From positions 124,001-188,000 of the forward strand of contig NZ_WESE01000003.1 in the NCBI RefSeq assembly GCF_009184895.1: a stretch of DNA of 64,000 nt, read 5' to 3'. A program made the translations under genes and the position numbers. Numbering within the stretch: the stretch's first letter is position 1; each line of letters opens with the position of its first letter. Positions 13,542-30,994 of the stretch are shown one piece after another. Under the pieces are notes generated by a model that saw only the letters and a list, made by a program, of their open reading frames with translations, was not told where the DNA came from and did no database searches. Source of the stretch: Nostocoides sp. F2B08. Its GTDB lineage: Bacteria > Actinomycetota > Actinomycetes > Actinomycetales > Dermatophilaceae.

Positions 13542-15062
<1,521 letters not shown>

Positions 15063-15275: not shown

Positions 15276-15282
15276 AGGAGGT
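15276..15282 (+). promoter_or_regulatory. Strong ribosome-binding site AGGAGGT that fixes the methyltransferase start
   Basis: AGGAGGT ends 5 nt before the GTG at 15288. This decides against in-frame upstream starts from 15225. Confidence 0.8.
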
Positions 15283-15290
15283 ATGCGGTG
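15280..15290 (+). repeat. 11-mer GGTATGCGGTG, copy 2
   Basis: Spans the space between the ribosome-binding site and the GTG start codon of the methyltransferase; its last three bases are that codon. Confidence 0.7.
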
Positions 15291-16082
15291 AGCGGCGTGG
15301 CGCGGCGGCCCACCTCGGGCGATGCGACGGCCTCGGCCAACCGTCGGTGGTGGGACTCGGAGGCATCCTCCTACTACAACGAGCACGGCCCCTTTCTCGG
15401 CGACGACCGCTTCGTGTGGGGACCGGAGGGGTGGACCGAGGCTGAGTTGGACATCCTCGAGGCGCGACCGACGCATACCGTTCTCGAGGTAGGTGCCGGC
15501 GGGGCGCAGTGCTCCCGCTGGCTGGCGGGGGAGATCGGCTGCCGGGTCGTGGCCACCGACCTGTCCGCCGGCATGCTCGGTACCGCCCGCCGGATCGACC
15601 GATCGCTCGGGCGAGCGCTCCCGCTCGCCCAGTGCGACGCGACCCGGCTCCCCTTCCCGGATGCGGTCTTCGACCGGGTCTTCACCGCATACGGCGCGGT
15701 GCCCTTCGTCGCGGACACGGCGAGGCTCATGCGGGAGATGGCCCGCGTCACCGTGCCCGGTGGACGGGTCGTCTACTCGACGTCCCATCCGTGGCGCTGG
15801 GCTTTTCCGGACGACCCCGGGGAGGCGGGCCTCACCGTGCGGCAGTCGTACTTCGACGAGCGACCCTATCTCGAGCTCGACGACGACGACCGCCCGGTCT
15901 ACGTCGAGCACCACCGAACACTCGAACACCGCGTCGCCGAGGCGGTCTCCGCCGGTCTCGTCATCGAGGCCGTCCGCGAGCTGCCCTGGAAGGACGCGAC
16001 AACGAGCACGTGGGGTGGCTGGTCGCCCTCCCGCGGGCGTCTGATCCCCGGGACGCTGGTCCTGGTGGCGCGCCGGTCGTGA
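15288..16082 (+). CDS. Class I SAM-dependent methyltransferase
   Basis: About 264 residues. The Rossmann-fold motif I (VLEVGAGGAQCSRWL) is near residue 65; motif II acidic residue in VVATDLSAGML; QCDATRLPFPDAVFDRVFTAYG covers motifs III-IV; and VPGGRVVYSTSHPW is the post-motif region. Probably a cytosolic small-molecule or lipid/polyketide-type methyltransferase of the UbiE-like group; the substrate is unknown. Divergent from rpsA and convergent with the DUF3068 gene (19-nt gap). It lies at the edge of the envelope cassette and may or may not belong to it. Confidence 0.85.
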   Translation: MSGVARRPTSGDATASANRRWWDSEASSYYNEHGPFLGDDRFVWGPEGWTEAELDILEARPTHTVLEVGAGGAQCSRWLAGEIGCRVVATDLSAGMLGTARRIDRSLGRALPLAQCDATRLPFPDAVFDRVFTAYGAVPFVADTARLMREMARVTVPGGRVVYSTSHPWRWAFPDDPGEAGLTVRQSYFDERPYLELDDDDRPVYVEHHRTLEHRVAEAVSAGLVIEAVRELPWKDATTSTWGGWSPSRGRLIPGTLVLVARRS

Positions 16083-16101
16083 CCGGCGGACGACGCTGCG
16101 A

Positions 16102-17262
16102 CTACTCGCTCAGCTCGCGGCGGGTGGTCCGGGACTCCGCCTCGGGTGCCGTGGCCTCCTCGAAGAACTGGTCCGTCCGGTCCGGGTACCGCTCCTCGTA
16201 GGTCGGCTCGACCGGCTCCTCGAAGTCGGGCTGGGCCGCGACCGGCTCCTCATGGGTCGCCTCGTCGGCGTACTCACTGTCGCCCGACGCCGAACGACCC
16301 ATGAAGGCGAGGAACGCGCCGAGGCCGACCAGCAGGAGGCCGGGGATGACGAGGTACCAGGTGAGGGGCCCGCGGAGCAGGCCGAGCAGGTTGCCCTTGG
16401 CTCCCCATTCGTCGGCGTTGGCCTGGATGGTCTCGTCGTCGAACCCGATCGTGCCGACGGTGAAGCCCACCGGCTGCTGACCGTCCGTCTGGAGCGTCTT
16501 GTCGACCTCTTCCTCACCCTTGATGACGACGCCGGTGTTCGGCTCGACCCAGAGGGTGCGGGTGTTCGCGTAGTGGAGGTCGGCGGCGACATTGCCCTCG
16601 AGACCCTCCTCGAACAGGGACGCCGGCACCTCACGGGTTGCGACGACCTCGTCGGGGATCACCTGCTGGAAGCGGTACGTCGTCGTGCCGAAGACGTCCT
16701 CCTCGTCCTGGAACTCGATGGGGAAGGCGCGACCGAGGTCGGCGTCCCACCACTGGTAGGTCTCCTTCTGGACGTTGAAGGGGAACTTGAACACCAGTCC
16801 CTCGTGCGTGGCGTCCTCGACCGCGTCCGGGTTGTCCAGGTCGCCCGTTGAGCGGTAGTCACCGCAGCAGTTCGTCGCCTCGCCGGTTCGACGGTCGATC
16901 GAGACACCCGAGTCGCTGTAGCTGAGGTCGACCCATTCGCCATCGACCTGGGCGCGAGAGACGCTCGAGCTCTGCCAGAACGCCTGAGTGTCCTCGACGC
17001 CGTACTCCTGGGCGATGCCGGGGATACCGTTCACCTCGCGGGTGTTCTGCACCGTCACGCCGGTGAGCTTGTCGATGACCGCGCCGTCCTCGCTCTCGTG
17101 CGGGTAGAGAACGCTCATGTTCTGACCGACGGACACCGACGTCGTCTCCTGGTCGAGGGGGACGATCGCCAGTCGGTCATACATGAAAGGGCGGGCCAGG
17201 AGGCCGAGGCCGATGAGCAGCGCACCCAGTGCGATGGCGACGAATCCCAGCACGCGGCGCAT
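16102..17262 (-). CDS. DUF3068 (PorA-family-like) membrane-anchored protein
   Basis: 386 residues: an N-terminal membrane helix (VLGFVAIALGALLIGLGLL), a large extracytoplasmic domain with a CCGDY pair of cysteines near residue 137, a second helix (LTWYLVIPGLLLVGLGAFLAFMG) near 310, and a disordered acidic cytoplasmic tail rich in Glu. It matches the DUF3068 family, annotated porin PorA-family in actinobacteria; function unproven. The ATG at 17262 has AAAGGTGG upstream and is preferred over the ATG at 17298, which overlaps the promoter. Divergent from the membrane protein gene at 17354. Confidence 0.82.
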   Translation of the reverse strand: MRRVLGFVAIALGALLIGLGLLARPFMYDRLAIVPLDQETTSVSVGQNMSVLYPHESEDGAVIDKLTGVTVQNTREVNGIPGIAQEYGVEDTQAFWQSSSVSRAQVDGEWVDLSYSDSGVSIDRRTGEATNCCGDYRSTGDLDNPDAVEDATHEGLVFKFPFNVQKETYQWWDADLGRAFPIEFQDEEDVFGTTTYRFQQVIPDEVVATREVPASLFEEGLEGNVAADLHYANTRTLWVEPNTGVVIKGEEEVDKTLQTDGQQPVGFTVGTIGFDDETIQANADEWGAKGNLLGLLRGPLTWYLVIPGLLLVGLGAFLAFMGRSASGDSEYADEATHEEPVAAQPDFEEPVEPTYEERYPDRTDQFFEEATAPEAESRTTRRELSE

Positions 17263-17298
17263 GCGCGGCCACCTTTCGGTCGACGGTGAGTCGCGCAC

Positions 17299-17318
17299 AG
17301 CGTACCAGCGGGTAGCCT
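17299..17318. promoter_or_regulatory. Divergent -10 boxes of the DUF3068 gene and the 616-aa membrane protein
   Basis: TACGCT on the minus strand (17299-17304) and TAGCCT on the plus strand (17313-17318) lie 9 bp apart. Both genes then have leaders of about 30 nt with purine-rich ribosome-binding sites. Confidence 0.4.
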
Positions 17319-17353
17319 GGACCGCGGTCGACTCCGGAAAACGAGGAACACGA

Positions 17354-19204
17354 GTGTCTGAACGGACCCACAGGCGTCCTGGACCCGTGCAGCGTATCCG
17401 TCGAGCGATCCCCTGGATCGGGCGCCGGGATGCCTGGGATCTGGGCGCCGCCGTGATGATCCTGGTGTTCCTGGGCGCGGTCCTGTGGCTCGTCGGAGGC
17501 GGTGGGCTCTACATCGACGACATCCGGGCTCAGGCCTACGCGGCAGACCGGTCGATGTGGCCCTTCATCGTCGAGAGCAACCAGACCCATCTCGCCTACT
17601 CGGCCCGGACCGTGGACTGGTTGCAGGCGACGTACGCTCCCCTCGAGCACTGGCCGGCCGTCGTGCTGACCCTCGTCATCGCAGGCACTCTCGGCGTCTT
17701 CCTCTGGATCGCGTGCCGGTCGCTGATCGGGCATCCCGCGGCCGCACTGGTGGGCGTGTACCTCGGCCTCTTCACGGCCACGATCGTGCCGACCCTGGCA
17801 TGGTTCCGGCAGTCCCTCACCGGGTTGGCGTCGATCACGATGACGCTGGTCGTCCTTACCCTGGCAGTCCGCTACGTCCGCGGCGGCTCACGATGGGTAC
17901 TCGCCGCGACGTGCGTCCTGCACGTGGTCGCCCTCGGGTTCTCGGAGCGTGCCCTGGTCGCACCGATCTTCCTCCTGGGCATCCTTGTCTTCCTCCGTCC
18001 GGCTGACACCAGGCCGTCCTCCCGTCGGGCGATCACGGCAGTCGTCGGCCTGGGTCTGGTCAACGTCGGCTTCCTCGTCGCCTATCTGTCCGGCGACTTC
18101 GACCGGGGGGACGGGACCCAACCCTCGGTCACGGGCTTCATCACGTCGACGGGCTACTCACTCCTCGGCAACACCGTCCCGGCGTACCTCGGCGGACCCT
18201 GGACCTGGTACGGAGACGGCAGCTACGGGTACGCCGACACCTCTGACTTCCTGATCGGGATCGCCGGGCTCGTGCTCGTCGTGCTGCTCGTGTTCGCCCT
18301 TCTGCACGATGCACGTCGCGCCGGCCGGGTGGTCGCCGCCGCAGCCTCGTTCGTCGTGCCGCTCTACGCGTTGATCTATGTCGGGCGGGTGGCCCGAGTC
18401 GATGAGGTCTCGGTCGTCGACGACCTGAGGCTGCACACGGATGCCGCGATCATCGGTGCGGTCGCGGTTGCCGCTCTCCTCTCCGTGGCCTTGGCTCATC
18501 CTGTCTTCGCGCGCCGGGGGCCTCGACTCGCACGGGCCATCGTCATGGGAGTCGTAGCCGTCATTGTCGTCAGCGGCACGGTCGCCTCGTGGTCGCGCTT
18601 CGTGGACCGGTGGCACACCAACGACTCTGACGTCTACCTCGAGTCCCTCCGCGCCGAGCTGCCGGACACCACCGGGACGATCGTGCCCGGACCGGTGCCC
18701 GAGGCCCTTGTTCCGTGGTGGGTGCAGCCGGACTTCAGCACCCAACCCCTGGTGCGCCTCATGTCCCCGCGGGCGGAAACCGTCGTCATGCGTGATCCGG
18801 CACGGGCTGTCGGCTACGACGGACACCTGGTCGACGCCCGGTTGATGGGTCTGGAGGCACTGTCGTCCTCGGAGCTGTGCGTCCTGAACATCCCCTCCGA
18901 CAAGCGCGCAGGACTCGTGCAACTGGTCGACCCGATACCGCCACGACGGCATCAACTCCTTGAGATCGGTCTCCTCGTCGGCGACACTACGCGGGTGGGT
19001 GTGGCGGTGATCGATAGCGAGGGAACGGAGACTCCGGCAAGCTTCTTCGACCCCCCGCTCCTCCACCGCGGCCCGACCCGAATCCTCGCGACGATTCCCG
19101 TCAACACAACCGTCACCGGGGTCGTGGTCACAGCCCTCGACCGCAACACGACGGGGATGTGCATCACCTCCGTGACGTCTGTCCTCGCCCGAGCGACCCT
19201 GTGA
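17354..19204 (+). CDS. Polytopic membrane protein, GT-C glycosyltransferase-like
   Basis: 616 residues, not recognised as a named family. It has about 11 membrane helices and a C-terminal extracytoplasmic domain of about 200 residues. The first loop holds a DD pair (GGGLYIDDIRAQAYA near residue 55) followed by a loop with HLAYSARTVDWLQ, the layout of GT-C polyprenyl-phosphate-sugar transferases, whose catalytic acid sits in that loop. This is an inference. The GTG at 17354 follows a GAGGA ribosome-binding site. Its stop overlaps the start of the acyltransferase gene (GTGA), so they are translationally coupled. Confidence 0.6.
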   Translation: MSERTHRRPGPVQRIRRAIPWIGRRDAWDLGAAVMILVFLGAVLWLVGGGGLYIDDIRAQAYAADRSMWPFIVESNQTHLAYSARTVDWLQATYAPLEHWPAVVLTLVIAGTLGVFLWIACRSLIGHPAAALVGVYLGLFTATIVPTLAWFRQSLTGLASITMTLVVLTLAVRYVRGGSRWVLAATCVLHVVALGFSERALVAPIFLLGILVFLRPADTRPSSRRAITAVVGLGLVNVGFLVAYLSGDFDRGDGTQPSVTGFITSTGYSLLGNTVPAYLGGPWTWYGDGSYGYADTSDFLIGIAGLVLVVLLVFALLHDARRAGRVVAAAASFVVPLYALIYVGRVARVDEVSVVDDLRLHTDAAIIGAVAVAALLSVALAHPVFARRGPRLARAIVMGVVAVIVVSGTVASWSRFVDRWHTNDSDVYLESLRAELPDTTGTIVPGPVPEALVPWWVQPDFSTQPLVRLMSPRAETVVMRDPARAVGYDGHLVDARLMGLEALSSSELCVLNIPSDKRAGLVQLVDPIPPRRHQLLEIGLLVGDTTRVGVAVIDSEGTETPASFFDPPLLHRGPTRILATIPVNTTVTGVVVTALDRNTTGMCITSVTSVLARATL

Positions 19205-20427
19205 GCGAGACCAGGACGAGTCGCTTGGAGCGGCGTCGGAGCCATCGGGCGGGATCGTCCACGCCGATGCTGCCGTCCACCCCGATGCTGCCGTCCACCC
19301 CGATGCTGCCGTCCACCCCGATGCTGCCGCATCTGCAAGAACTGGAAGCGTGGCGCGGCCTCGCCGCCTTCGCCGTTCTGCTCACCCACGCAGGCTTCCT
19401 GTCCGGAGCGACCGGTCGCGATCTCCTCCCGGGCTTCCTGTCCCGCATGGACCTCGGCGTCACGGTCTTCTTCGTCCTCAGCGGCTTCCTCCTGTACCGG
19501 CCCCACGCCAATGCGATCGCCACCGACAACCCGGCGCCGGCGACGCGTCGGTTCGTGATCCGACGGGTGGCACGAATCGTCCCCGCGTGGCTCGCCGTCC
19601 TCGTCGGAGCACTCGTCCTGGTCCCGGCGACGCGGACCGCCGGTGCCGACGTGTGGGCCGCCAACCTGCTCCAACTACAGGCCCTTCGGTTCGAGTGGGA
19701 TCTCCCTGGCCTGACGCAACTGTGGAGCCTCTCGACCGAGATCGGCTTCTACCTGTGCCTGCCACTCATCGCGCTCGGCATCCGCCGATCGGTGGGTGAC
19801 CGGGGGCCGGCAGCACATGTGCTCGCCATCGGCGGACTCATCCTCGCCGCCTGGTCGTTCCGCGTGGCGGGCTACCTCGGTCTGCTCCCTGCCGGATACG
19901 CGTGGTTGCGCACCTTCCCCGCCATGTTGGACTGGTTCGCTCTCGGGATGCTCTTGGCGGTCCTCATGGCCAACCAGCACCGGTGGCCCACCCTCGTCGA
20001 GACCATCAGGCATTCAGGCAACGCGTTTCTCGTCCTGGCGGCCGCGGTCTTCTGGATTCTGACGACCTCGATCGCCGGACCCTACACCCTCAGCCCGTCC
20101 ACCTCCTGGCAGATGACCGTGCGGCATCTTGGAGCCGCGGCTGTCGCCGCCCTCCTCATCTACCCGTCAGCCGTCGGAGCCCGGACCGTGCTCACGGCCC
20201 TGCTCCGGTCCCGCCCTCTGGGCTATTTGGGCAAGATCAGCTACGGCTTCTTTCTCTGGCACATGCCCGTCATGTTCTGGGTTCGGTCCACGCTCGGCTA
20301 CGAGCTGTTCGACGGGCACTTCTGGGTCACCGTCGTCGCCACGACCATCATCACGACCGTCATCGCGGCGGCCAGCTGGCACGTCATCGAGCGTCCCATC
20401 CTCGACGCGGCGCGCCGGCGGACGTGA
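19201..20427 (+). CDS. Acyltransferase family 3 (OafA/YrhL-like) membrane protein
   Basis: 408 residues. The core has the family's first-helix motif ELEAWRGLAAFAVLLTHA (conserved R and His) near residue 45, VFFVLSGFLLYRPHA, RRVARIVPAWL, and a final SYGFFLWHMPVMFWV and WHVIERPILD. Such proteins O-acylate sugars of envelope polysaccharides using cytoplasmic acyl donors. The first 43 residues are unusual: four copies of PMLPST-type units encoded by an 18-bp tandem repeat. The GTG start overlaps the previous gene's stop. Its last 261 bp are also open on the opposite strand as the tail of the AftD-like gene. Confidence 0.88.
   Translation: MSETRTSRLERRRSHRAGSSTPMLPSTPMLPSTPMLPSTPMLPHLQELEAWRGLAAFAVLLTHAGFLSGATGRDLLPGFLSRMDLGVTVFFVLSGFLLYRPHANAIATDNPAPATRRFVIRRVARIVPAWLAVLVGALVLVPATRTAGADVWAANLLQLQALRFEWDLPGLTQLWSLSTEIGFYLCLPLIALGIRRSVGDRGPAAHVLAIGGLILAAWSFRVAGYLGLLPAGYAWLRTFPAMLDWFALGMLLAVLMANQHRWPTLVETIRHSGNAFLVLAAAVFWILTTSIAGPYTLSPSTSWQMTVRHLGAAAVAALLIYPSAVGARTVLTALLRSRPLGYLGKISYGFFLWHMPVMFWVRSTLGYELFDGHFWVTVVATTIITTVIAAASWHVIERPILDAARRRT
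19258..19329. repeat. Four tandem copies of an 18-bp repeat
   Basis: The unit TCCACCCCGATGCTGCCG occurs at 19258, 19276, 19294 and 19312. The first copy has one change (ACG for ACC). It encodes STPMLP repeats at the acyltransferase N-terminus and keeps frame. Confidence 0.95.
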
Positions 20428-23400
20428 CGTCTTGCCCTTCGCGGGCTCGGGGTCCGGTGCCCACGGACCGAGGACGACCAGGGCGACGAAACCCATGGCG
20501 AGCAACTGCGCGACTCCGTCGCGGTTCGTCGCCATCGGGGCCGGCCAGGGAGACATCGTCGCCCAAGCGATCAGACCGGCACCGATGACACCACCGACTC
20601 GAACGACGGCGCGGTGGCTCACCGATCTCACGAGGAGCGCGGCGACCACGGTCACGACGACACCCCCGGGGCCTGAGACGAGCGCAGCCGCCACGACGAC
20701 TCCGACCAGACCGACCCACGATGACGGGTTGAGCGGCGACGGCACAGCGGTCGACCCTGTCTCGGTCGTGCGCTGAGGACGGAGGCTGAGCGCAACGAGC
20801 GTCACAGCGCAGACGAGCCCGATGACCAACGCGAGCCGGAACGCCGCCTGCGGGGCGAAGCGGAGCTCGACCGAGCCGGTCGTCCCCTCCGGGATGACCC
20901 ATCCCTGAGCCCATCCATCAGCTGTCACCGGCTCGAGCTCGACACCCCCAGCCGAGGCCACCCAGCCCGGGTTCGCGTTCTCTCGGACCACGAGCAGTGA
21001 GTCCGCCTCCGTCGTCTCGCTCAGGCTGAGGACTCGGTGCGTCGAGGTCCATCGGTCCACCTCGAGGGCGGTTCCCGGCGTCGCGAGCAAGGGACGCGTG
21101 GTCAACGTGAGAGAGCGGGGCAGGAACTCGGCCGAGGCGATCAACCGCGCTCGGACTTCGCCGGCCGCCACCGAGGCGGTCTCACAGCCGACGAGGTCCA
21201 GCGGTTCGCCGGCGATGAGCCGGCCCCGGGTTCCGCGGACCTCTGTGGGGTAGGTCTGCCCGGCGACCTGGACGATCGGACCGAAGCCGCACGGCATGAT
21301 CACCGGCTCGCTCGCCCCCAGTCCCGTGGTCGTCCACGGCTCTCCGCTGACGGTCAGCTCGCCGATGACGACCGGCATGTCGGCACCGCCGTCGGTCACC
21401 TGACTGGTGGTGCGAATCACCGTCACGGAGACCGACGAGACCCGCCGGGTCCCGAGGTCGATGAAGCCGCTTTCCGGCACTGGCAGAGTCCGCCCCGGTC
21501 CGTCGTCAAGGGATACCTCGACTCTCGTCGGTCGCCGACCGGCGGCGTCGCTGTCCACCTCGAGCCTGATTCCCGTGACCAGACGAGGCTCGTCCCACGT
21601 CACGTGGAGGACCGGGCGATCGTCGTCAGGGTCACTTGCCCAGTACGTTCCCGGATCACCGTCCAGGACGAGTTGCGGGCTCACGGAAGGTCCCTCCAGC
21701 CACTGGCTGGAGGCCTCCGCCTCGATCCCGTCCAGTCGTTTGAGCAACTCCTCGGCGGCCGATGAGGAGCGCGGGTACACCGAACCTGACAGGGTGAACT
21801 CGCTGTCCTTCGACAGTGTGAACACGCGTCGCAGATCGCCTGACTGTTCGCCGTCACGGCTCGTGGCCGGGTTGCAGGCGAGCACGCCTGAGGCCATGGC
21901 GACGCACGCGGGCCGCCGATCGAGTGGCGTCTCCATGGCGACCATGTCGACCGGAGCGCTGACCGCAGGCATGGCCGACCACGGTTCGGCCCGGGGTATC
22001 GCGTCCGCACCGATATCGAGGACTCGCACCGTGGGTCGACCATCCCGTACGTCCGCGACCGTGAGCCGGAACATCGTGCTCGGTCCGGGCGCAACAGCCA
22101 CGTCGAACGCGTACCGATCTCGCTCGACCGCCGGGTCGAAATCGGGCGGGCTCACCGGCGTGCGCACCTCCCCCTGATCCGTCCGGGTCACGACAGCCGC
22201 GATGTCCGCACCGACGGCGGCATCGATGACGACCCGCACCGTTTCCGGAAGGGTGACCGCCGACGGCCAGTCCGCCTGCACCCACTCGCCCACGGGCTCG
22301 TAGCCGGCGGACTGCCACCACGTGTCACCACTACGGTCGAAGGCCCGGGCGGCGTCGGTCGCCAGGTCTCGCGACTGACCGAACTCCGGGTTCGTCAGGG
22401 CCGACGAAGCCTCGGCCTCGACCCCCCCGACCCAGACTTTGGTGGTCTGCGACGCAGTCAGTTCGTCCGACGCGACCCAAGAAGGCACCCAGTCGTGGAC
22501 CCTCCGGGGGGCTAGGTGCGGCTCCTCCGCGGTCAGCAGGCCACCATAGTTGTCCCGGACCGCGGAGAAGGTGGCCTCCCGTCGCGGCAGGGTGTCCGTG
22601 ATCACGCCTCGTGCTGGTCCCACGGCATCGACACTCGCGACGTCGGCGGCGAACACGACCGGCACATCAGCGGGCACGGGTGAGCTGAGTCCCTCTGGCC
22701 CTCCCGACATCTCCACCGCGGCGCTCAGCGGAACGACGCTGTTCGGAGCGATCCGCGTGTCGTCGGCGAGCTCGAAGACCTCTACGGCACGCAGCGGTCG
22801 GCCCATGCCACCGTCGGCGGCGATTCCGGGGTCGAACGACCCGCCCACCGGCGGGCCGAAGGCCTGCACCGGCTCGGCGCCTGCGGTCTCCAGTGCCCGG
22901 CGGGCCACCAACGGGCGGACGCCTCCGGGGACCAGGTCGGCGCGGAGGAGAACCCGGCTGACGCCGAGCCGTGACAGGGATCTGGCCAGCTCCTCGCCGC
23001 CGTACCCGGTCGCGACCCGGGCCTCGATGTCGTTGAGGATCCGGATCGCGCTCGCCGACCCGAGCGGGACGACGTCTCGGACGATCCACGGGCTGTCGAC
23101 GAGCGCCTGCAGCGGCTCGTCGCGTGGATCCCCCCAGATGCTCGTCGCCATGTTCGATCCGGGGAGCACGAGCGTGCGTCCCTCATCGGGGTGATCGTCG
23201 AGCCACGCGGCCGCCTGGCTCCAGTAGTCCGGGAGCTGCAGATAGCGTCCCCGCTGGCTCACGCCGGTCAAGGCTGGAAACGCGGCCTGCGCCACGATGG
23301 CGAGGACGACCACCGCATACCCCAACCTGGGCCAGGGCGCCCGCACGGAGACAGCCCATCGGTGCAGCCGCGGGAGCGCGTGCGCGAGGCCCATCACCAC

Positions 23401-24516
23401 GGCCAGACGAACGAGCGGCTCGAACTTGTGGGCGTTGCGGAACGGAGCAAGAGGACCGTCCAGCAGCGTCGCTACCTGCGCCGCCCCAACACCGGTCACG
23501 TCCCCGACGCGCCCCATCGTGACCAGGAGCAGGCCGACCACGAGGAGTACTCGGGCGAAGACCCCCCACCGTCGTGGAACCGTCCACAGGCCGAGCAGGC
23601 CGACGACCGCGACGAGGAGTCCCATCGCAACCGTCACCCGTGACGTCAGGATCTCGAAGCCGGCTATCCATAGCGGCCCCCGGGAACCGGTGATCCCCGC
23701 GATCCACTGCGTCGTCCCGCGGAGCGTTTCGGGAAGGCTGGCCGGTGCGGTGGTGACCGCGGCGCTCTCGATCCAGTCCAGGAAGGGCGGGCTGTACCGG
23801 CCGAGCAGCAGGAGAGGAACGACCCACCACAGAGTGGCCAGGGTGACCGCCGCAGCCCACCAGCCCAAGAGCCTCGTCCGCACCGGCCGCGCCCGGGTGA
23901 GGATCCACAGTCCGCCCGGGATGAGGACGGCGATCGTGGCCGTCGCATTGACCGCGCCGACGAGGAGAACCGCGAGTCCCGAAAGCATGGCGGCGCGACG
24001 CTCCGAGCCTGGGGCGAAGCGGACCAGCGGCACGAGCACCCACGGAGCCACGGCCATCGGCCAGATCTCGGAGCTCACGGCTCCCAGTCCCATGAGCATG
24101 CGGGGAGCGAGGGCGTATGCGGCGGCCGCGACGAGTCTGGACGCCTCGGTGCCGATCTCGAGCCGTTCGAGGAGCACGCGGGTGCCGTGGAATCCGACCA
24201 GCAGAATAGTCGCCCACCAGAGGCGCTGGGTGACCCAGCCCGGTACCCCGAGGGCGTCGTGCACCCAGAAGAACGGACCCATGGGGAAGAGGTAGCCATA
24301 GGCCTGGTTCTGGAGCTGCCCGGCCGCCGCAGTCGGATCCCACAGCACCAGAGCCCTCCCGAGCAGGCCGGATGGGTTGGCGGTGAGATCGAGCTTGGTG
24401 TCCGGTGCCGTCCACCCGGGATGTTGGACGAAGGCCAGCGCCACGAGGACCGCTGAGACTGCGACGAGCCGGACCCGCCGCGTCCAGCTCTGGACGGCGG
24501 AGTCGGTCTCAGTCAC
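20167..24516 (-). CDS. AftD-like alpha-(1->3)-arabinofuranosyltransferase domain membrane protein
   Basis: 1449 residues with about 11 N-terminal helices, a very large extracytoplasmic region and C-terminal helices. The GT-C acidic motif lies in the first loop (PDTKLDLTANP near residue 38), then WDPTAAAGQLQNQAYGYLFPMG, and the central part has F5/8 type C (discoidin-like) segments (GDPGTYWASDPDDDRPVLHV). This is the AftD layout: a decaprenyl-phospho-arabinose-type transferase with carbohydrate-binding modules. The link is strengthened by a DUF2613 gene nearby, as next to mycobacterial aftD. The GTG start overlaps the methyltransferase stop by 8 nt. The last ~87 codons are antisense to the acyltransferase and low-complexity, so the true functional end may be near 20430. 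Confidence 0.8.
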   Translation of the reverse strand: MTETDSAVQSWTRRVRLVAVSAVLVALAFVQHPGWTAPDTKLDLTANPSGLLGRALVLWDPTAAAGQLQNQAYGYLFPMGPFFWVHDALGVPGWVTQRLWWATILLVGFHGTRVLLERLEIGTEASRLVAAAAYALAPRMLMGLGAVSSEIWPMAVAPWVLVPLVRFAPGSERRAAMLSGLAVLLVGAVNATATIAVLIPGGLWILTRARPVRTRLLGWWAAAVTLATLWWVVPLLLLGRYSPPFLDWIESAAVTTAPASLPETLRGTTQWIAGITGSRGPLWIAGFEILTSRVTVAMGLLVAVVGLLGLWTVPRRWGVFARVLLVVGLLLVTMGRVGDVTGVGAAQVATLLDGPLAPFRNAHKFEPLVRLAVVMGLAHALPRLHRWAVSVRAPWPRLGYAVVVLAIVAQAAFPALTGVSQRGRYLQLPDYWSQAAAWLDDHPDEGRTLVLPGSNMATSIWGDPRDEPLQALVDSPWIVRDVVPLGSASAIRILNDIEARVATGYGGEELARSLSRLGVSRVLLRADLVPGGVRPLVARRALETAGAEPVQAFGPPVGGSFDPGIAADGGMGRPLRAVEVFELADDTRIAPNSVVPLSAAVEMSGGPEGLSSPVPADVPVVFAADVASVDAVGPARGVITDTLPRREATFSAVRDNYGGLLTAEEPHLAPRRVHDWVPSWVASDELTASQTTKVWVGGVEAEASSALTNPEFGQSRDLATDAARAFDRSGDTWWQSAGYEPVGEWVQADWPSAVTLPETVRVVIDAAVGADIAAVVTRTDQGEVRTPVSPPDFDPAVERDRYAFDVAVAPGPSTMFRLTVADVRDGRPTVRVLDIGADAIPRAEPWSAMPAVSAPVDMVAMETPLDRRPACVAMASGVLACNPATSRDGEQSGDLRRVFTLSKDSEFTLSGSVYPRSSSAAEELLKRLDGIEAEASSQWLEGPSVSPQLVLDGDPGTYWASDPDDDRPVLHVTWDEPRLVTGIRLEVDSDAAGRRPTRVEVSLDDGPGRTLPVPESGFIDLGTRRVSSVSVTVIRTTSQVTDGGADMPVVIGELTVSGEPWTTTGLGASEPVIMPCGFGPIVQVAGQTYPTEVRGTRGRLIAGEPLDLVGCETASVAAGEVRARLIASAEFLPRSLTLTTRPLLATPGTALEVDRWTSTHRVLSLSETTEADSLLVVRENANPGWVASAGGVELEPVTADGWAQGWVIPEGTTGSVELRFAPQAAFRLALVIGLVCAVTLVALSLRPQRTTETGSTAVPSPLNPSSWVGLVGVVVAAALVSGPGGVVVTVVAALLVRSVSHRAVVRVGGVIGAGLIAWATMSPWPAPMATNRDGVAQLLAMGFVALVVLGPWAPDPEPAKGKTSRPPARRVEDGTLDDVPAGRRDDGRDDGRGDDGDPEVPVEQLVAERGPNPEHDGHVPEKEAVADLAQIAQRAGPEQGREHGPGSDG
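23311..23321 (-). repeat. 11-mer GGTATGCGGTG, copy 3
   Basis: Inside the AftD-like gene, read there as codons for GYAV. It is the only exact copy on the minus strand. Confidence 0.7.
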
Positions 24517-25285
24517 CGGCGGGCTCCCGCGCCACGCTCAGGACGATGACCGCGTTCCACGAGGCGATCTCCCTCAGCCCCGGGACCGACATGACGCGGT
24601 GCGCCCAGCGCGGGTGGTACCGAGGAATGGTGGCGACGTCGAGCACGCGACCTTGCCGACCCGCTTCTCGGGCCCACCGGAGCATGCGGCCGACCGAGCA
24701 CGGGTACAGCGAGCGACCGTAGTCGTTCTTCGGACGACGGCCGTGGCGACGGGCATAGCGGTCCGCCGCCCGCCGGCCTCCGAGGTAGTGCCATGGGGCG
24801 GTCTCGTGCCCACCCCATGGTGAGAGCCACGGTGTCCAGGAGAGGTACACGAGTCCTCCGGGTCGCGTGACGCGCACCATCTCGTCCGCCATACGCTCGG
24901 GCTCCGGCACGTGTTCCAGAACGTTGCTCGACAGGGTCACATCGAAGCCTCCGGCGACGATCGGCAGCTCAAGCCCCGAGGCACGGAGGCTGTCGCCCGC
25001 AGCGTCACCCCGGGCGGTCATCTCCCCCGCATCCGGCTCTACCCCCGCATACCGTGCCCCGGCGGCCTCGAACGCGTCGGCGAAGTACCCCGGACCTCCC
25101 CCGACATCAAGGACTCTGCTGCCGGACAACGTGGTCCACTGGCTGAGCTGGGAGACGGTGTCGGACGCGAGCGCCCCGTAGAAGCGGTCCGGGTCGTCCT
25201 GCTCGTGCAGGAATGCCTGGAACAGCCGGACCGACCTGCTCAGGGTGGCGGCATGCGGTCGGACGGGCGATCCGGCCAGGCTCAT
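24509..25285 (-). CDS. Class I SAM-dependent methyltransferase
   Basis: About 258 residues from the ATG at 25285; an ATG at 25306 is an alternative. Motif I is VLDVGGGPGYFADAFEAAGA, followed by YAGVEPDAGEM, VTLSSNVLEHVPEPERM and RPGGLVYLSW. It resembles methyltransferases of sugar or lipid-linked glycan pathways; the substrate is unknown. It overlaps the start of the AftD-like gene by 8 nt, which suggests co-translation and a role in the same glycan pathway. Divergent from the GT4 gene with a gap of about 50 bp. Confidence 0.85.
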   Translation of the reverse strand: MSLAGSPVRPHAATLSRSVRLFQAFLHEQDDPDRFYGALASDTVSQLSQWTTLSGSRVLDVGGGPGYFADAFEAAGARYAGVEPDAGEMTARGDAAGDSLRASGLELPIVAGGFDVTLSSNVLEHVPEPERMADEMVRVTRPGGLVYLSWTPWLSPWGGHETAPWHYLGGRRAADRYARRHGRRPKNDYGRSLYPCSVGRMLRWAREAGRQGRVLDVATIPRYHPRWAHRVMSVPGLREIASWNAVIVLSVAREPAGD

Positions 25286-25300
25286 GTGACTACTCTCGGG

Positions 25301-25306
25301 TAACAT
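25301..25306 (+). promoter_or_regulatory. Possible -10 box (TAACAT) of the GT4 gene
   Basis: TAACAT in the short divergent gap; transcription would start near 25313, 22 nt before the GTG at 25335. No -35 recognised. Confidence 0.3.
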
Positions 25307-25334
25307 CCTCGGGACATCAAGCGAGGTCCCATCA

Positions 25335-26447
25335 GTGCGCGTTGCATTCCTGAACTGGCGTGACTCCACCCACCCCGAGGGTGGGGGAGCCGAACTCTAC
25401 GCTCAGACCGTCTGCGCCGGCCTTGCCGCGCGCGGACACGCCGTCACCCTATATTGCGCCGACCACGGTCGCGCACCTGCGGACGAGCAACGCGATGGGT
25501 ATCGCATCCGGCGCCGCGGGTCCCGACTGTCGGTCTACGCAGCGGCGGTGGCGCAGCTCAGGAGGGATGCGGCCGAGGAGGGAGCCTACGACGTCGTCGT
25601 CGACACCCAGAACGGCATCCCGTTCTTCAGTCCCCTGCAGATCAGGACCCCGGGGGTCGTGCTGGTCCATCACGTGCACCGCGAGCAGTGGCCGGTCGTC
25701 TTCGGTCCCGTCCAAGCCCATGTCGGCTGGTTCGTCGAGTCCCGCGTCGCGACGCAGGTGAACCGGCGGCGCACCTACGTGGCAGTGAGCGAGCGCACGA
25801 AGGAGGAGCTTGGGCAGCTCGGAGTGGACCTCGAGAGGATCCGCGTGATCCACAACGGCACCAACCCGCCACGCCTGACGGGGCGTGACCGTGCCGAGGA
25901 CCCGACCCTGGTCGTCCTCGGTCGACTCGTGCCGCACAAACGTGTCGAGCACGCGGTCGACGTGATCGCCGCTCTCTCCTCGACCCATCCACAGGCACGC
26001 CTCCGCATCATGGGCGAGGGATGGTGGCATGACCGCATTGCCGCGCACGCGGACGCGCGGGGGGTCGCCGACCGGGTGGACCTGCTGGGATTCGTGGACG
26101 AGCAGACCAAGGCCGAAGAGCTGGATCGAGCGTGGCTGTCGCTCGCACCGAGTGTCAAGGAGGGCTGGGGCCTGTCCGTCGTCGAGGCCGCCAGTCACGG
26201 CGTTCCGACAGTGGCCTACCACGGAGCCGGCGGACTCTCCGAGTCGATCGCCGACGGACGGACCGGCATTCTCGTCGACTCACTGGACGCGATGACAGCC
26301 GCCGCGCGGGCGCTCATCGAGGATGGGTCGAGGCGAGCCAGAATGGCGGAAGAGGCGCGCACACACAGCGCGCGCTACACATGGGAGGCCTGCGTCGACG
26401 CCTGGGAGAGTCTGCTCGACGAGGTGAGCGTCAGCCGCCGTAGTTGA
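25335..26447 (+). CDS. Glycosyltransferase family 4
   Basis: 370 residues with a GT-B fold, cytosolic or membrane-associated. N-terminal acceptor domain: RVAFLNWRDSTHPEGGGAELYAQ. Donor domain: VVLGRLVPHKRVEHAVD near residue 195 and the retaining EX7E motif KEGWGLSVVEAASHG near residue 275. It probably adds a sugar to a lipid-linked or nucleotide acceptor in the same envelope pathway; donor and acceptor are unknown. The GTG at 25335 is used. Its 3' end overlaps that of the convergent DUF2613 gene by 17 nt. Confidence 0.9.
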   Translation: MRVAFLNWRDSTHPEGGGAELYAQTVCAGLAARGHAVTLYCADHGRAPADEQRDGYRIRRRGSRLSVYAAAVAQLRRDAAEEGAYDVVVDTQNGIPFFSPLQIRTPGVVLVHHVHREQWPVVFGPVQAHVGWFVESRVATQVNRRRTYVAVSERTKEELGQLGVDLERIRVIHNGTNPPRLTGRDRAEDPTLVVLGRLVPHKRVEHAVDVIAALSSTHPQARLRIMGEGWWHDRIAAHADARGVADRVDLLGFVDEQTKAEELDRAWLSLAPSVKEGWGLSVVEAASHGVPTVAYHGAGGLSESIADGRTGILVDSLDAMTAAARALIEDGSRRARMAEEARTHSARYTWEACVDAWESLLDEVSVSRRS

Positions 26448-26631
26448 GGACGACGGCGGGGTCGAGGATCTCCGCCGGACCGTTCTGCACGGCGTCGCCG
26501 TCACTGGGCGAGTTGGCGGACACGATCGCCGCCGCAGCGCCGGTCGCGGCCAGGAGCCCGAGGATGGCGCTGAGGACGACCGCGACAACGGGACGGCTGC
26601 GGTCGTCCTGGGTGTAGGCACCAGAGGCCAT
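26431..26631 (-). CDS. DUF2613 small membrane protein
   Basis: 66 residues with one membrane helix (PVVAVVLSAILGLLAATGAAAAIVS) followed by a short extracytoplasmic tail (SPSDGDAVQNGPAEILDPAVVLNYGG). It matches the DUF2613 family. In mycobacteria such a small protein gene lies beside aftD, so the nearby AftD-like gene gives it context. Function unknown; it may be an accessory subunit. The ATG at 26631 is preferred to the one at 26646. Confidence 0.75.
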   Translation of the reverse strand: MASGAYTQDDRSRPVVAVVLSAILGLLAATGAAAAIVSANSPSDGDAVQNGPAEILDPAVVLNYGG

Positions 26632-26681
26632 GAATACTCTCCTCACGAGCCATCTGCAGGGGCGATGGCACTCGGTTCAGT

Positions 26682-28328
26682 CTAGCGGCTCGCAGCGGAC
26701 GGCTCGGACCACACCACGAAATCCGCACCCGAGAATGTCTCCGCCCAGGTGGATGGTAAATCCGGAACGACTCCCGGGCTTCCCCTCCAGACGACGACAT
26801 GCTCGATGCCGCTACCGCTCAGTAGCTCAGATGGTATGGGATCGCCACCGCCGCGAGACAGCCATTCTCGCAGCGTGTCGTCCGCCGCCTCGATGGCGCT
26901 CTCCTGGATGTCGTTCTCTCGGAGGTCGACGGAGTCCGCCACCAGGATCAGGTCACCGTCGCGTTCGATGGTCAACGTTCCGTCCGAGAGCACCCGACCC
27001 GGTAGGGCTCTCGCCGTGGGGTCGAGGAAGGTCTGCGGCATCCACGTCACCCGCCGGAGGGGCTGCCAGGGCAAGGTCAGCACCCGCCCACTGTCCATGG
27101 CCGCGACCACCGCCTCCCACTCCGGTGAGAAGGGCTGCGGATCGTAGGCCGCCCGTAACCGTTCCGGAGCGCCCGGGACGAGGACCACAGCGACGGCTGT
27201 GGGAAGGATGACGGCGAGCGGCACCTCGAGCGCTCGGCGTCCATCGGAGACCCGCTGCACCAACGTGCCGGTCCCGATCGCGACGAGGAACACCGTGGCG
27301 ACGACCGACGGCGCCAGCATTCGATGCAGGTCTCGGAAGAGAGCAACACCGGGGACCTCCTGCAGCGCCGTCCACGGCGCGAGGAGTGGACCGCTGAGCA
27401 GTGCCGTGATCACCGGAATCCCGACGGCGGTCACCGACAGAGCCGGGGCGGCTGGGTGGCGGGTCCGCGCGAGTTCGACGAGGCCCAGTGTGCCGAGCGC
27501 GAGGACCACGACGAGACCGACCACCCCGATGGCGCCGGAGCGCGCACCGAGGGTCGCGGCCGCAGACCACACGCCGCCACCGACGAGAGCCGACGCGAAG
27601 GCGCCGAGGCCGGTGTCGTCCGCCAGCCGGAAGGCACGTGCGCCGGACGGATCCGCGCCGCTACCCCCGCCCGCCAGCGCCGGCACCAGCCAGGGCAAAC
27701 ACAAGATGACGGAGACAGCCGCCTGGAGCGCGACCTCAGCGGGTCTCCTGCGGCGAAGCATCGCCACGAGGACCGCCGCAGTGCCGGCGAGTACGGCCCC
27801 CCATGGGGTCAACGCTGCGACGAGGACCGCCAGGGACGACAGCGTCACACGCCGTCTCACCGACGCCTGCCGGGAGGTGATCACCAGCCACGGCAGGGTG
27901 GCGTAGGCGATGAGAAGGACGGGCTGCCCGAGGAGCAGACGCTCGATGACGTACGGGTTGGCCATCGACACGACCGTTGCGGTGCCCATCGCGATCGGAC
28001 CGCGATGGCGCAGGACGAGACCCGCCCCCACTCCAGCCCCGACGAGTGACCCGAGCAGGAACAGATGCTGCAGGAGCCATGTGGGCAGCAGCAGGCTCCA
28101 CGCCCATAGGACCCCGTCGAGCGGCCAGGCGCGCAGTCCCGCAGGGGTGCGCAGATGGTGCCAGTCGGGCGCCGTCGGGGACGGCACGGTGACGTGATCG
28201 AGGAACAGTGCGTAACCGGGTCGCACGGAGGCTCCGAGAAGCGCGCCGGCGACGAGGAGGGCCAACCCCAGACACAACAGCTCGGGGGCGCCGGAGCGAC
28301 GATGACGCCCGCTAGTGGGCGGCGGCAT
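26682..28328 (-). CDS. Polytopic membrane protein, GT-C-like
   Basis: 548 residues with about 12 membrane helices and a C-terminal extracytoplasmic domain of about 150 residues that ends ...GADFVVWSEPSAASR. The family was not recognised. The first loop GYALFLDHVTVPSPTAPDW resembles the loop that carries the catalytic acid in GT-C glycosyltransferases, and the middle holds SMANPYVIERLLLGQ, found in related actinobacterial membrane glycosyltransferases. This is an inference from topology and neighbours. The ATG at 28328 overlaps the end of polA by 17 nt; a longer frame upstream is polA shadow. Confidence 0.65.
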   Translation of the reverse strand: MPPPTSGRHRRSGAPELLCLGLALLVAGALLGASVRPGYALFLDHVTVPSPTAPDWHHLRTPAGLRAWPLDGVLWAWSLLLPTWLLQHLFLLGSLVGAGVGAGLVLRHRGPIAMGTATVVSMANPYVIERLLLGQPVLLIAYATLPWLVITSRQASVRRRVTLSSLAVLVAALTPWGAVLAGTAAVLVAMLRRRRPAEVALQAAVSVILCLPWLVPALAGGGSGADPSGARAFRLADDTGLGAFASALVGGGVWSAAATLGARSGAIGVVGLVVVLALGTLGLVELARTRHPAAPALSVTAVGIPVITALLSGPLLAPWTALQEVPGVALFRDLHRMLAPSVVATVFLVAIGTGTLVQRVSDGRRALEVPLAVILPTAVAVVLVPGAPERLRAAYDPQPFSPEWEAVVAAMDSGRVLTLPWQPLRRVTWMPQTFLDPTARALPGRVLSDGTLTIERDGDLILVADSVDLRENDIQESAIEAADDTLREWLSRGGGDPIPSELLSGSGIEHVVVWRGSPGVVPDLPSTWAETFSGADFVVWSEPSAASR

Positions 28329-30987
28329 GCCAGGTGTCGCCCACGCCGACATTGACGTCGAGGGGGACCAGCAGGTCCACGGCGGCACCCATCTCGCGCC
28401 GGACCAGGACCTCGACGTCCGTACGTTCCCCCGGTGCCACCTCGAGGACGAGCTCGTCATGCACCTGGAGCAGCAGCCGCGAGCCGGCTCCCGACTCCCT
28501 CAGCGCCTCACGGACCCGGATCATGGCGACCTTGATGATGTCGGCCGCCGAGCCCTGGATCGGGGCGTTGAGGGCCATGCGCTCGGCCATCTCCCGCCGC
28601 TGCCGGTTGTCGCTGGTGAGGTCGGGAAGATAGCGCCGACGGCCGAGCATTGTTTCGGTGTACCCGGACTGGCGCGCTCCGGCCACGACGTCGCGCAGGT
28701 AGTCCCGCACCCCGCCGAAGCGCTCGAAGTACTCGTCCATCAGACCTCTGGCCTCGTCGGTGGAGATCGTGAGCTGACGGCTCAGGCCATATGCGGACAG
28801 GCCGTAGGCCAGGCCGTAGGACATCGCCTTGATCTTGGCGCGCATCTCGAGCGTCACGTCCTCGGGCTCCACCCCGAAGACCCGGCTGCCCACGAAGCGA
28901 TGCAGATCCTCCCCCGAGGTGAAGGCGGCGATGAGGCCTTCGTCCCCCGACAGGTGCGCCATGATCCGCATCTCGATCTGGCTGTAGTCGGCGGACATCA
29001 GCGTCTCGTAGCCCGCACCGACGACGAACGCCTCCCGGATGCGGCGGCCCTCCTCGGTCCGGATCGGCACGTTCTGGAGGTTCGGGTCGGTCGAGGACAG
29101 CCGCCCGGTCGCTGCGATCGTCTGGAGGTAGGTCGTGTGGATCCGCCCATCGGAGGCGATCGACTTGAGCAGACCCTCGACGGTCACCCGGAGGCGCGAG
29201 GTGTCGCGGTGCCGGAGCAGTGCCTCGAGGAAGGGGTGCTCCGTCTTGGCATACAGGTCCGCGAGCGCCTCGGCGTCCGTGGTGTACCCGGTCTTGGTGC
29301 GTTTCGTCTTCGGCATCTGAAGACGCTCGAACAGGACCGTCTGGAGCTGCTTCGGACTCCCGAGGTTGATCTGCTCACCGTCGATGGCGGCGTAGGCGTC
29401 GTCCTGCGCCGCCCGCATCTTCGCGTCGAAGTCCGCCTCCAGCGACTCCAGACCCGCCCGGTCGACGGCGATGCCGGTGTCCTCCATCTCGACCAGGATG
29501 TCGACGAGGGGCAGCTCGATCTCGCGGAGCAGCCGGTCGGCCCCGATCTCGCCCAGGCGGGTGTCGAGGGCCCCCGAGAGCTCCAGGACCGCTCGGGCCC
29601 GCACCATGGCATCGTCCGCGGCGGCATCCGCGGCCGCCTCGTCGTCGAAGCTCAGCAGACCCTGACCCGAGTCGGTCGCCTCGCTCGACAGCTCACGGCC
29701 GAGATGCCGGACGGCGAGGTCGGCGAGATCGTAGGAGCGCTGGTCGGGCCGGACGAGATACGCGGCAAGCGCGGTATCGCTGACGACCCCGCGCAGCGCC
29801 CAGCCGCGGGACGCGAGCGCGTGGATCGGCACCTTCGCGTCGTGCAGCACCTTCGGGCGTGCCGGGTCCTCGATCCAGTCCCCCACGGCGGACTCGCCGG
29901 CGGGATCGAGGGTCAGCAGGTCGATGAAGGCCGCTGAGCCGTCCGCGGTCGCGACAGCGACCGCCGTCGCATCTCCCTCACCCTTGGTCCAGTGCCCGAC
30001 GACGTGGACCCCCACCGGGTCGGGACCACCATGGTGTCCGACCCAACCGACGACGTCCTCGGGTAGGAGCACGGCCCCGTCGAGGTCGAAGCCACCCTCG
30101 ACCTCCTCACTGGGTGAGTCGAAGGTCGCGAACAGCCGATCACGGAGGACTCGGAACTCGAGACTGTCGAAGACTCGGTGGACCTCCTCCCGCTGCCACG
30201 GCCGACGCTCGAGGTCGGCGATCCCGATCTCGAGTGGCACGTCGCTGATCAGCTGGTTCAGCCGGCGGTTGCGCAGCACCGAGTCGAGATGGGCTCGGAG
30301 GCTCTCACCCACCTTGCCCTTGATCTCGTCGGCATGGGCGACGATGCCCTCCAGGTCGCCGTACTGGCCGATCCACTTCGCCGCGGTCTTGGGTCCGACG
30401 CCCGGCACACCCGGCAGGTTGTCGGAGGACTCGCCGACGAGGGCGGCCAGGTCGCTGTAGCGGTTCGGCGGAACGAGGTACTTCTCCTCGACCGCAGCGG
30501 GGTCCATCCGCCAGACCTCGGAGACGCCTCGGACGGGGTAGAGCATCGACACCGACTCGCTCACGAGCTGGAACGCATCCCGGTCACCGGTGCAGAGCAC
30601 CACCTCGAGCCCGTCGGCGACGGCCTGGTGTGTCAGGGTCGCGAGGATGTCGTCCGCCTCGAAGCCCGGCGCCTCGACGTGCCGGATGGACAGTGCATCG
30701 AGAACCTCGCGGAGCAGCGGCAGCTGCCCTTGGAACTCACTCGGTGTCGCCGAACGGCCGGCCTTGTATTCGGTGTACTCCTCGGAGCGGAATGTCTGGC
30801 GGGACACGTCGAAGGCCACCGCCACATGGGTCGGGTCCTCGTCGCGGAGCACGTTGATCAGCATGGACGTGAACCCGTAGACCGCGTTGGTGTGCTGCCC
30901 GGTGGACGTCGAGAAGTTCTCCACCGGCAGCGCGTAGAACGCCCGGTATGCGAGAGAGTGCCCGTCGAGGAGGAGAAGCCTGGCCAC
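28312..30987 (-). CDS. polA: DNA polymerase I (5'-3' exonuclease and polymerase; proofreading site degenerate)
   Basis: 891 residues. Residues 1-300 are the 5' nuclease (LLLDGHSLAYRAFYALP, GDRDAFQLV, GVPGVGPKTAAKW). The middle third occupies the 3'-5' exonuclease position but lacks the DxE pair: the region reads GDATAVAVATADGSAAFIDL. The polymerase has motif A (MSADYSQIEMRIMAHLS), motif B (RAKIKAMSYGLAYGLS) and motif C (LLLQVHDELVLEV). It fills gaps in repair and removes Okazaki primers. The GTG at 30987 lies 7 nt after the -10 of a RecA-NDp-type promoter, which rules out the ATG at 31032. Confidence 0.97.
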   Translation of the reverse strand: MARLLLLDGHSLAYRAFYALPVENFSTSTGQHTNAVYGFTSMLINVLRDEDPTHVAVAFDVSRQTFRSEEYTEYKAGRSATPSEFQGQLPLLREVLDALSIRHVEAPGFEADDILATLTHQAVADGLEVVLCTGDRDAFQLVSESVSMLYPVRGVSEVWRMDPAAVEEKYLVPPNRYSDLAALVGESSDNLPGVPGVGPKTAAKWIGQYGDLEGIVAHADEIKGKVGESLRAHLDSVLRNRRLNQLISDVPLEIGIADLERRPWQREEVHRVFDSLEFRVLRDRLFATFDSPSEEVEGGFDLDGAVLLPEDVVGWVGHHGGPDPVGVHVVGHWTKGEGDATAVAVATADGSAAFIDLLTLDPAGESAVGDWIEDPARPKVLHDAKVPIHALASRGWALRGVVSDTALAAYLVRPDQRSYDLADLAVRHLGRELSSEATDSGQGLLSFDDEAAADAAADDAMVRARAVLELSGALDTRLGEIGADRLLREIELPLVDILVEMEDTGIAVDRAGLESLEADFDAKMRAAQDDAYAAIDGEQINLGSPKQLQTVLFERLQMPKTKRTKTGYTTDAEALADLYAKTEHPFLEALLRHRDTSRLRVTVEGLLKSIASDGRIHTTYLQTIAATGRLSSTDPNLQNVPIRTEEGRRIREAFVVGAGYETLMSADYSQIEMRIMAHLSGDEGLIAAFTSGEDLHRFVGSRVFGVEPEDVTLEMRAKIKAMSYGLAYGLSAYGLSRQLTISTDEARGLMDEYFERFGGVRDYLRDVVAGARQSGYTETMLGRRRYLPDLTSDNRQRREMAERMALNAPIQGSAADIIKVAMIRVREALRESGAGSRLLLQVHDELVLEVAPGERTDVEVLVRREMGAAVDLLVPLDVNVGVGDTWHAAAH

Positions 30988-30994
30988 GCATGGC

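Follow-up and report, generated by a model that had tools for sequence, protein, structure and literature searches.

In Mycobacterium and Corynebacterium, the genes for MtrP, a GT4 glycosyltransferase, MmpA, PgfA (LmcA), TmaT and AftD make up a locus (Rv0224c-Rv0228, Rv0236c). The C. glutamicum genes run in the order cg3161 (AftD), cg3162, cg3163 (TmaT), cg3164, cg3165, cg3166 (a putative glycosyltransferase), cg3167 and cg3168 (MtrP) (PMC7775120), where cg3164 is LmcA and cg3165 is MmpA; the paper on MmpA gives the names NCgl2759 (TmaT), NCgl2760 (Rv0227c), NCgl2761 (MmpA) and NCgl2764 (MtrP) (PMC8698533). Synteny has been described for Corynebacteriales in the paper on AftD (PMC6034362), and Rv0224c, Rv0226c and Rv0227c are reported or predicted to be essential in Mycobacterium tuberculosis. 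In M. smegmatis, PgfA is reported to have a part in moving trehalose monomycolate, and in C. glutamicum LmcA contributes to lipoglycan synthesis; whether the two are orthologues has been questioned (PMC9678360). Deletion of aftD in C. glutamicum lowers wall arabinose by 7% and raises trehalose monocorynomycolate about 1.5-fold, a "clear phenotype" in the authors' words, and the linkage formed by AftD is disputed (PMC6034362). How MmpA, MtrP and PgfA work is not settled.

The present analysis concerns a block of genes between polA and rpsA in Nostocoides sp. F2B08, within a stretch of 64,000 nucleotides (the window; contig NZ_WESE01000003.1, positions 124,001 to 188,000). By its sequence, this block is the counterpart of the MtrP-GT4-MmpA-PgfA(LmcA)-TmaT-AftD locus. 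The preferred explanation, which is given a probability of about 60%, is that it represents a mycolate-free form of that locus, and would assemble a lipid-linked glycan of the envelope and transfer it. The locus is already known in Mycobacteriales, and the NCBI model for MmpA names members elsewhere by their mycobacterial function; what appears to be new is the complete locus in bacteria without the genes for mycolate and decaprenyl-phosphoryl-arabinose (DPA). No description of the locus as a unit in mycolate-free bacteria was found in the open-licence PMC literature searched, which is not proof that none exists.

The window locus and its mycobacterial counterpart

Gene calls and domain matches bear out the original prediction of a nine-gene block between polA and rpsA. 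The features of the interval, with their coordinates in the window, are listed below.

13542-15062, minus strand: rpsA, flanking gene, with four S1 domains
15225-16082, plus strand: MT1, class I S-adenosylmethionine-dependent methyltransferase (PF08241, 66 bits); an alternative start at 15288 is equally possible
16102-17298, minus strand: PgfA/LmcA (DUF3068, Pfam "PorA", PF11271, 233 bits; NF053601, 229.5 bits)
17354-19204, plus strand: GT-C-like membrane protein of 616 amino acids (aa) with a C-terminal beta domain (profile and model matches)
19159-20427, plus strand: AT3 (acyltransferase-3), positional counterpart of TmaT (PF01757, 98.5 bits); start uncertain, N-terminus repeat-rich
19256-19329, plus strand: 18-bp minisatellite, 4.1 copies with 98% matches, inside the N-terminal coding part of AT3
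20167-20427: tail-to-tail coding overlap of AT3 (plus) and AftD (minus), 261 nt
20167-24516, minus strand: AftD-like GT-C protein, 1449 aa, with a carbohydrate-binding module (PF11847, 688 bits; PF24607, 41 bits)
24509-25369, minus strand: MT2, MtrP orthologue (Rv0224c/NCgl2764) by syntenic identity; start probably further in
25335-26447, plus strand: GT4, counterpart of the glycosyltransferase in cg3166/Rv0225 (PF00534, 111 bits)
26431-26646, minus strand: small DUF2613-like protein, 71 aa, with one hydrophobic stretch (by eye) and homologues at the same place
26682-28328, minus strand: MmpA, 548 aa, GT-C fold, paralogous to the AftD N-domain (NF053599, 236 bits)
28312-31032, minus strand: polA, flanking gene (PF00476, 491 bits); its stop overlaps the MmpA start by 17 nt

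All six gene families of the Mycobacteriales TmaT-PgfA-MmpA-MtrP-GT4-AftD locus are present together in the window. Read on the minus strand, their order is [MmpA GT4 MtrP][AftD AT3 616 PgfA], where 616 denotes the 616-aa protein. In genomes that carry Pks13 and in which the whole locus was seen, the order is [AftD AT3 PgfA][MmpA GT4 MtrP] and the relative strands match those of the window; one Pks13-bearing genome, G049, departs from this arrangement. Since order and strands agree within the sub-blocks, the window locus is the mycobacterial one with its two sub-blocks swapped. It shares with the locus of Mycobacterium and Corynebacterium the same six families, sub-blocks and relative strands, but differs from it in the swapped sub-blocks, the extra 616-aa GT-C-like gene and the polA-rpsA site. 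The original prediction had read the block as an envelope-glycan cassette. This holds insofar as its GT-C-like, GT4, O-acyltransferase and methyltransferase genes form a coherent set, but the identity of the locus (TmaT/PgfA/MmpA/MtrP/AftD, with the 548-aa protein as MmpA) had been missed.

The distribution of the block was followed in a sample of 396 actinobacterial genomes, in which PgfA, AftD, MmpA and Pks13 were called by curated cut-offs and families carry the labels f1 to f80 (f1 corresponds to Intrasporangiaceae, by interleaving in a tree; f6 is Streptomyces-like, by inference). PgfA exceeded its cut-off in 63 genomes, AftD in 75, MmpA in 31 and Pks13 in 20, all of the last in f7. Nearly every MmpA genome (30/31) also has both PgfA and AftD, while MmpA is missing from 45 AftD genomes and 33 PgfA genomes. 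The co-occurrence of MmpA gives Fisher p values of 2e-26 with PgfA and 2e-23 with AftD (1e-9 and 2e-8 when f7 is left out), which serve as a guide only, as the genomes are not independent. Of the 30 three-gene genomes, ten have no Pks13, and each of these carries PgfA, AftD and MmpA inside a span of about 18 kb. The three genes are found in 5/5 sampled genomes of the window's family.

A second set, separate from the sample in which Pks13 was counted, consists of 80 named loci; these are the best 80 matches to an MtrP alignment, and counts from them are conditional on an MtrP relative. At least four of the five core genes (MmpA, GT4, MtrP, AftD, PgfA) are present in 57 of the 62 loci of at least 18 kb, and these 57 come from nine orders outside Mycobacteriales and one unclassified metagenome-assembled genome (MAG). 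The five long loci with fewer than four core genes are 4/4 from Nocardiopsidaceae, probably paralogues, and 1/10 from Streptosporangiaceae. The original prediction had named a scattering of these genes in relatives, without co-occurrence, as the outcome that would speak against it; instead, across the phylum the genes of the block are found jointly and close to one another, beyond what chance would give.

A quick tree was built from joined MtrP, GT4 and AftD of 61 of 79 loci (18 rows from three families were thinned; LG+G4, midpoint root). Six Pks13-bearing genomes form one clade (support 100), whose sister group consists of Nocardioidaceae and f9 (99). The f9 genomes have no Pks13, and Nocardioidaceae do not make mycolates. 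The window and Phycicoccus sp. Root101 fall together (100). The mycolate branch would be surrounded by mycolate-free lineages unless the root lies inside it; we infer the direction from the midpoint root.

MmpA, AftD and their partner proteins

According to the published description, MmpA has no recognisable catalytic domains and shows partial similarity to AftD, and the paper reports no homologues beyond corynebacteria and mycobacteria (PMC8698533). The window protein exceeds the curated equivalog cut-off for MmpA (NF053599, 236 versus 210 bits), and the same cut-off is passed by 9/9 tested MmpA homologues outside f7, one of them from an f9 genome. Profile alignment with hhalign places MmpA against the AftD N-domain at 99.3% (E 2.8e-20) over 455 columns, as a near full-length paralogue. 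A structural model of MmpA (predicted local distance difference test, pLDDT, 89.0) has as its best VIA-align match AftD (6w98), with Z 23.5, 452 residues and a root-mean-square deviation of 4.2; PglB follows at Z 19-20. AftD comes first only in VIA-align: with Foldseek it is not among the best 50 rows, which oligosaccharyltransferases and AftA lead. A sequence search of the PDB with MmpA gave no match.

A catalytic acid in the first outer loop is a feature of GT-C enzymes. In MmpA, D44, near the protein start, is invariant in 32/32 sequences and aligns with D43 of AftD. The simplest reading of the model would be that MmpA is an enzyme, a putative GT-C transferase, although a shared fold by itself shows no function. 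The NCBI name "MmpA family trehalose lipid delivery protein" applies to the window protein, as it passes the equivalog cut-off, whereas the model resembles a GT-C enzyme; the name is open to doubt in hosts that make no trehalose mycolate.

The AftD-like protein matches GT-C_AftD (PF11847) over its N-domain with 688 bits, and a profile of 28 AftD N-domains matches the cryo-electron microscopy structure of AftD (6w98) with E 7e-268. It retains the acids D39, D43 and E250 and shares the carbohydrate-binding module; these acids are also kept in genomes without a known arabinose-donor route. No known route to the arabinose donor was found in the window genome. Two genomes of the sample carry another AftD-like gene, a few kb away from the block and adjoined by a gene for a Wzx-like protein (G260:C2:194611-196605 and G355:C1:108656-110593).

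PgfA exceeds its curated equivalog cut-off (NF053601, 229.5 versus 160 bits) and matches the crystal structure of LmcA (7n3v, E 8e-16). By eye, it has a single membrane helix, at the C-terminal end, and an acidic tail of some 60 aa, and it is predicted to be a periplasmic lipid-binding protein. The 616-aa protein belongs to no Pfam or NCBIfam family, and a PDB sequence search with it was also without match. Its profile aligns with the AftD N-domain at 89% (E 2e-6), and its model (pLDDT 80.9) has oligosaccharyltransferase and PglB as top Foldseek matches, followed by EmbB. The pair D55-D56 is found in 25/26 sequences. By these matches, the 616-aa protein is a more distant GT-C.

MT2 shares 50-67% identity with its syntenic counterparts from ten other genomes, half of which (five) carry Pks13. 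GT4 shows 41-63% identity in syntenic loci of f1, f7 and f22 and of G198 (f9), and 37% in G367 (f9). The strand of GT4 is reversed in five loci (L038, L078, L085, L091 and L117) relative to the window and the other Intrasporangiaceae loci, a single-gene inversion. In the window the AT3 domain occupies the position of TmaT, beside PgfA and AftD, and shares 38% identity over 362 aa with the AT3 that neighbours PgfA in a Pks13-bearing genome (G307). AT3 is missing from 24/24 Pseudonocardiaceae stretches and is therefore not a constant part of the block. The minisatellite in AT3 encodes STPMLP repeats ahead of the AT3 domain; a variable N-terminus or a wrong start are both possible.

Among the 80 named loci, 45 have a Wzx-like protein (about 410 aa) within or adjoining the block, in most cases as the neighbour of MmpA (for instance L079:5626-6846, minus strand; 57 other loci were mapped, three of them duplicates). 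Loci were read in eight Pks13-bearing genomes, of which five have it and three (G307, G038 and G049) do not. A search of 24 genomes gave at least 234 bits in 12 and any match in 17. The family has a weak Polysacc_synt match in 7/24 members and an NCBIfam name in 0/5 tested, and a sequence search of the PDB returned one chance match (E 1.9).

Predicted product and competing explanations

The window genome (4.5 Mb, 45 contigs, completeness 100) has a best Pks13 match of 378 bits against a cut-off of 2100, and 0/5 genomes of its family exceed that cut-off (Ag85 and MmpL3 were not searched for). No Emb, DPPR (decaprenyl-phosphoryl-ribose) synthase or DprE1 orthologue was found in the window genome; AftA, DprE2, GlfT1 and GlfT2 were not searched for. 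In a hand-chosen panel of 20 genomes, Emb occurs in three, DPPR synthase exceeds its cut-off in five (any match in 11, no match in the window genome), and DprE1 reaches at least 366 bits in five (two f6 genomes have 366-391 bits). The query for DprE1 was taken from G307 and matched 20/20 genomes at E 0.001 or better via remote oxidases, and orthology was judged by score; the best match in the window genome is partial and reaches 35.7 bits, as in panel genomes with remote oxidases only. Emb, DPPR synthase over its cut-off and a DprE1 orthologue are found in 0/9 panel genomes that have PgfA, AftD and MmpA and no Pks13, the window's included. The host is thus unlike Mycobacterium and Corynebacterium in that none of Pks13 (over the cut-off), Emb, DPPR synthase and DprE1 was found in it.

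In the preferred explanation, GT4 would build the cytoplasmic part of the glycan, and MtrP would modify or license it. On the outer face, MmpA, AftD and the 616-aa protein would use polyprenyl-phosphate donors to attach sugars, AT3 would O-acylate the product, and PgfA would carry a lipid or glycolipid across the periplasmic space. The product would be neither a D-arabinan made from DPA nor a trehalose mycolate, and mycobacterial mycolate transport would be a later use of the machine. In favour of this explanation are, besides the shared gene set, order and co-occurrence, the kept acids of AftD, the fold and invariant Asp of MmpA, the single clade of mycolate genomes in the tree, and the Wzx-like partner in 45/80 named loci. 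Intrasporangiaceae are also stated to have no mycolic acids, and in Phycicoccus the whole-cell sugars are chiefly galactose and glucose (PMC6113628).

Several points weigh against this explanation. All of the functional steps are drawn from homology. PgfA acts in mycolate transport in M. smegmatis, and its true orthology to LmcA is doubted (PMC9678360). The activity of AftD is known only from mycobacteria and corynebacteria, and another route to an arabinose donor may exist. MptB, which exceeds its cut-off in 9/20 panel genomes, is not among the proteins of the window genome, so that a lipomannan anchor is not evident. The Wzx-like protein that related blocks often carry, and that would place them with Wzx-type lipid-linked glycan systems, has no match in the window genome (other flippase families were not searched for). 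PgfA, AftD and MmpA are all lacking in 11/11 genomes sampled across four further families of the order, and the block is thus dispensable within the order. Finally, the tree does not follow a simple vertical story, as the Intrasporangiaceae and f1 need four changes each; two of the five f1 genomes (G260 and G355) branch far from the window, and Kribbella is nested among Intrasporangiaceae. With these placements, transfer between lineages may have contributed.

The product could alternatively be a true D-arabinan or a lipoarabinomannan-like polymer, with the arabinose donor supplied by enzymes other than orthologues of DPPR synthase and DprE1. The conserved active-site acids and the carbohydrate-binding module of AftD would fit such a product, as would two GT87 proteins over the cut-off in the window genome, from the family of AftC and PimE. 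On the other hand, Emb, DPPR synthase over its cut-off and a DprE1 orthologue are found in none of the five genomes of the window's family. Furthermore, the main whole-cell sugars of Phycicoccus are galactose and glucose (PMC6113628), and a review restricts arabinogalactan to Corynebacteriales and part of the Pseudonocardiales and Actinopolysporales (PMC6194230). A D-arabinan is considered unlikely.

Likewise improbable is that the block transports a fatty-acid ester of trehalose or of another sugar, with ordinary acyl chains, and that PgfA, MmpA, MtrP and AT3 act as they do in mycolate bacteria. In C. glutamicum, TmaT, MmpA and MtrP act jointly on trehalose corynomycolate (PMC8698533), PgfA has its transport role in M. 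smegmatis (PMC9678360), and the counterparts of all four proteins are kept together in the window. Such a role leaves AftD, GT4 and the 616-aa protein unexplained, however, and mutation of LmcA (PgfA) in C. glutamicum alters lipoglycans and not the trehalose lipid (PMC8698533). The lack of a Pks13 over the cut-off, in a search that did not extend to Ag85 and MmpL3, also speaks against it. An ordinary exopolysaccharide or capsule locus, which resembles the mycobacterial one by family alone, is very unlikely: GT4, AT3 and methyltransferases are common families and the 616-aa protein has no named one, but PgfA and MmpA exceed curated cut-offs, gene order and strand are shared, and co-occurrence is nearly complete.

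A broader proposal, put forward tentatively and with less than even odds, is that AftD, MmpA, PgfA, MtrP and TmaT may be an ancient actinobacterial assembly and transfer line for an as yet undescribed acylated glycan linked to a lipid, in which MmpA would be a glycosyltransferase and AftD would have no need of arabinose, and which mycobacteria would have taken over for trehalose monomycolate at the origin of the mycomembrane. A mycolate-free host with the complete set would make MmpA, MtrP, PgfA and AftD amenable to study outside a mycolate background, and a host without the known mycolate and arabinan genes shows what these proteins must manage without them. The automatic names "trehalose lipid delivery protein" and "arabinofuranosyltransferase" are doubtful where neither pathway exists.

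The polA-rpsA site and gene layout

Both polA and rpsA lie beside the block in seven named loci (four from Intrasporangiaceae, and those of Kineosporia, Mumia and one unclassified MAG), as well as in two further genomes, one of them from f9; G367 shows both over two stretches. One of the two genes is in the stretch in nine further loci, among them those of Kribbella, Nocardioides, Jiangella and a Frankiales MAG. Three f6 genomes have PgfA and MT1, without AftD or MmpA, between rpsA and polA. Neither polA nor rpsA was seen in the stretches of Pseudonocardiaceae, Streptosporangiales, Geodermatophilaceae, Micromonosporaceae and f7. From these comparisons, the polA-rpsA interval appears to be a shared site of the block in part of the phylum. 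The original prediction had the block "separating" polA from rpsA, which finds no support, as the same interval holds the block, or PgfA alone, in many relatives; with the site common to the block in part of the phylum, the picture is better reversed. The window shows no break in guanine-plus-cytosine content. A recent insertion between polA and rpsA is not favoured, since there is no such break and the same site is used in several orders.

MT1 is present in 3/3 f6 loci read, but in 0/24 Pseudonocardiaceae and 0/22 Streptosporangiales loci. It seems to belong with rpsA rather than with the glycan block. As a member of the block it was rejected with some doubt: it stands beside rpsA in f6 loci that have no AftD or MmpA, while in L134 MT1 is present and rpsA is not in the stretch.

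With respect to the small 71-aa protein, the original gene list was correct in all families except one, as the "DUF2613" label falls below the Pfam cut-off (PF11021, 8.6 bits versus a gathering cut-off of 22.1). Homologues lie at the same place in Intrasporangiaceae and Kineosporia, and one remote homologue passes PF11021 (25.6 bits). Since the window protein is under the cut-off but this homologue is over it, the label is tentative.

Overlaps of 4-17 nt had been predicted between several genes. Three junctions agree (AftD/MT2 with 8 nt, GT4/small gene and polA/MmpA with 17 nt each, as read from the sequence), but the tail-to-tail overlap of AT3 and AftD is 261 nt long; at the remaining junctions of the block, overlap depends on the chosen start. 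A convergent overlap of AT3 and AftD is found in 30 of 36 distinct places, with lengths of 13 to 261 nt, mostly 68-191, and that of the window is the longest. Two Pks13-bearing genomes (G243 and G255) also have it, whereas five others have a gap. An Rfam scan returned nothing except the tRNA. A promoter scan gave one promoter-like site versus 0.7 expected, and a terminator scan one terminator-like site versus 2.6 expected. A coaE-GrpB domain fusion is encoded at 12271-13458.

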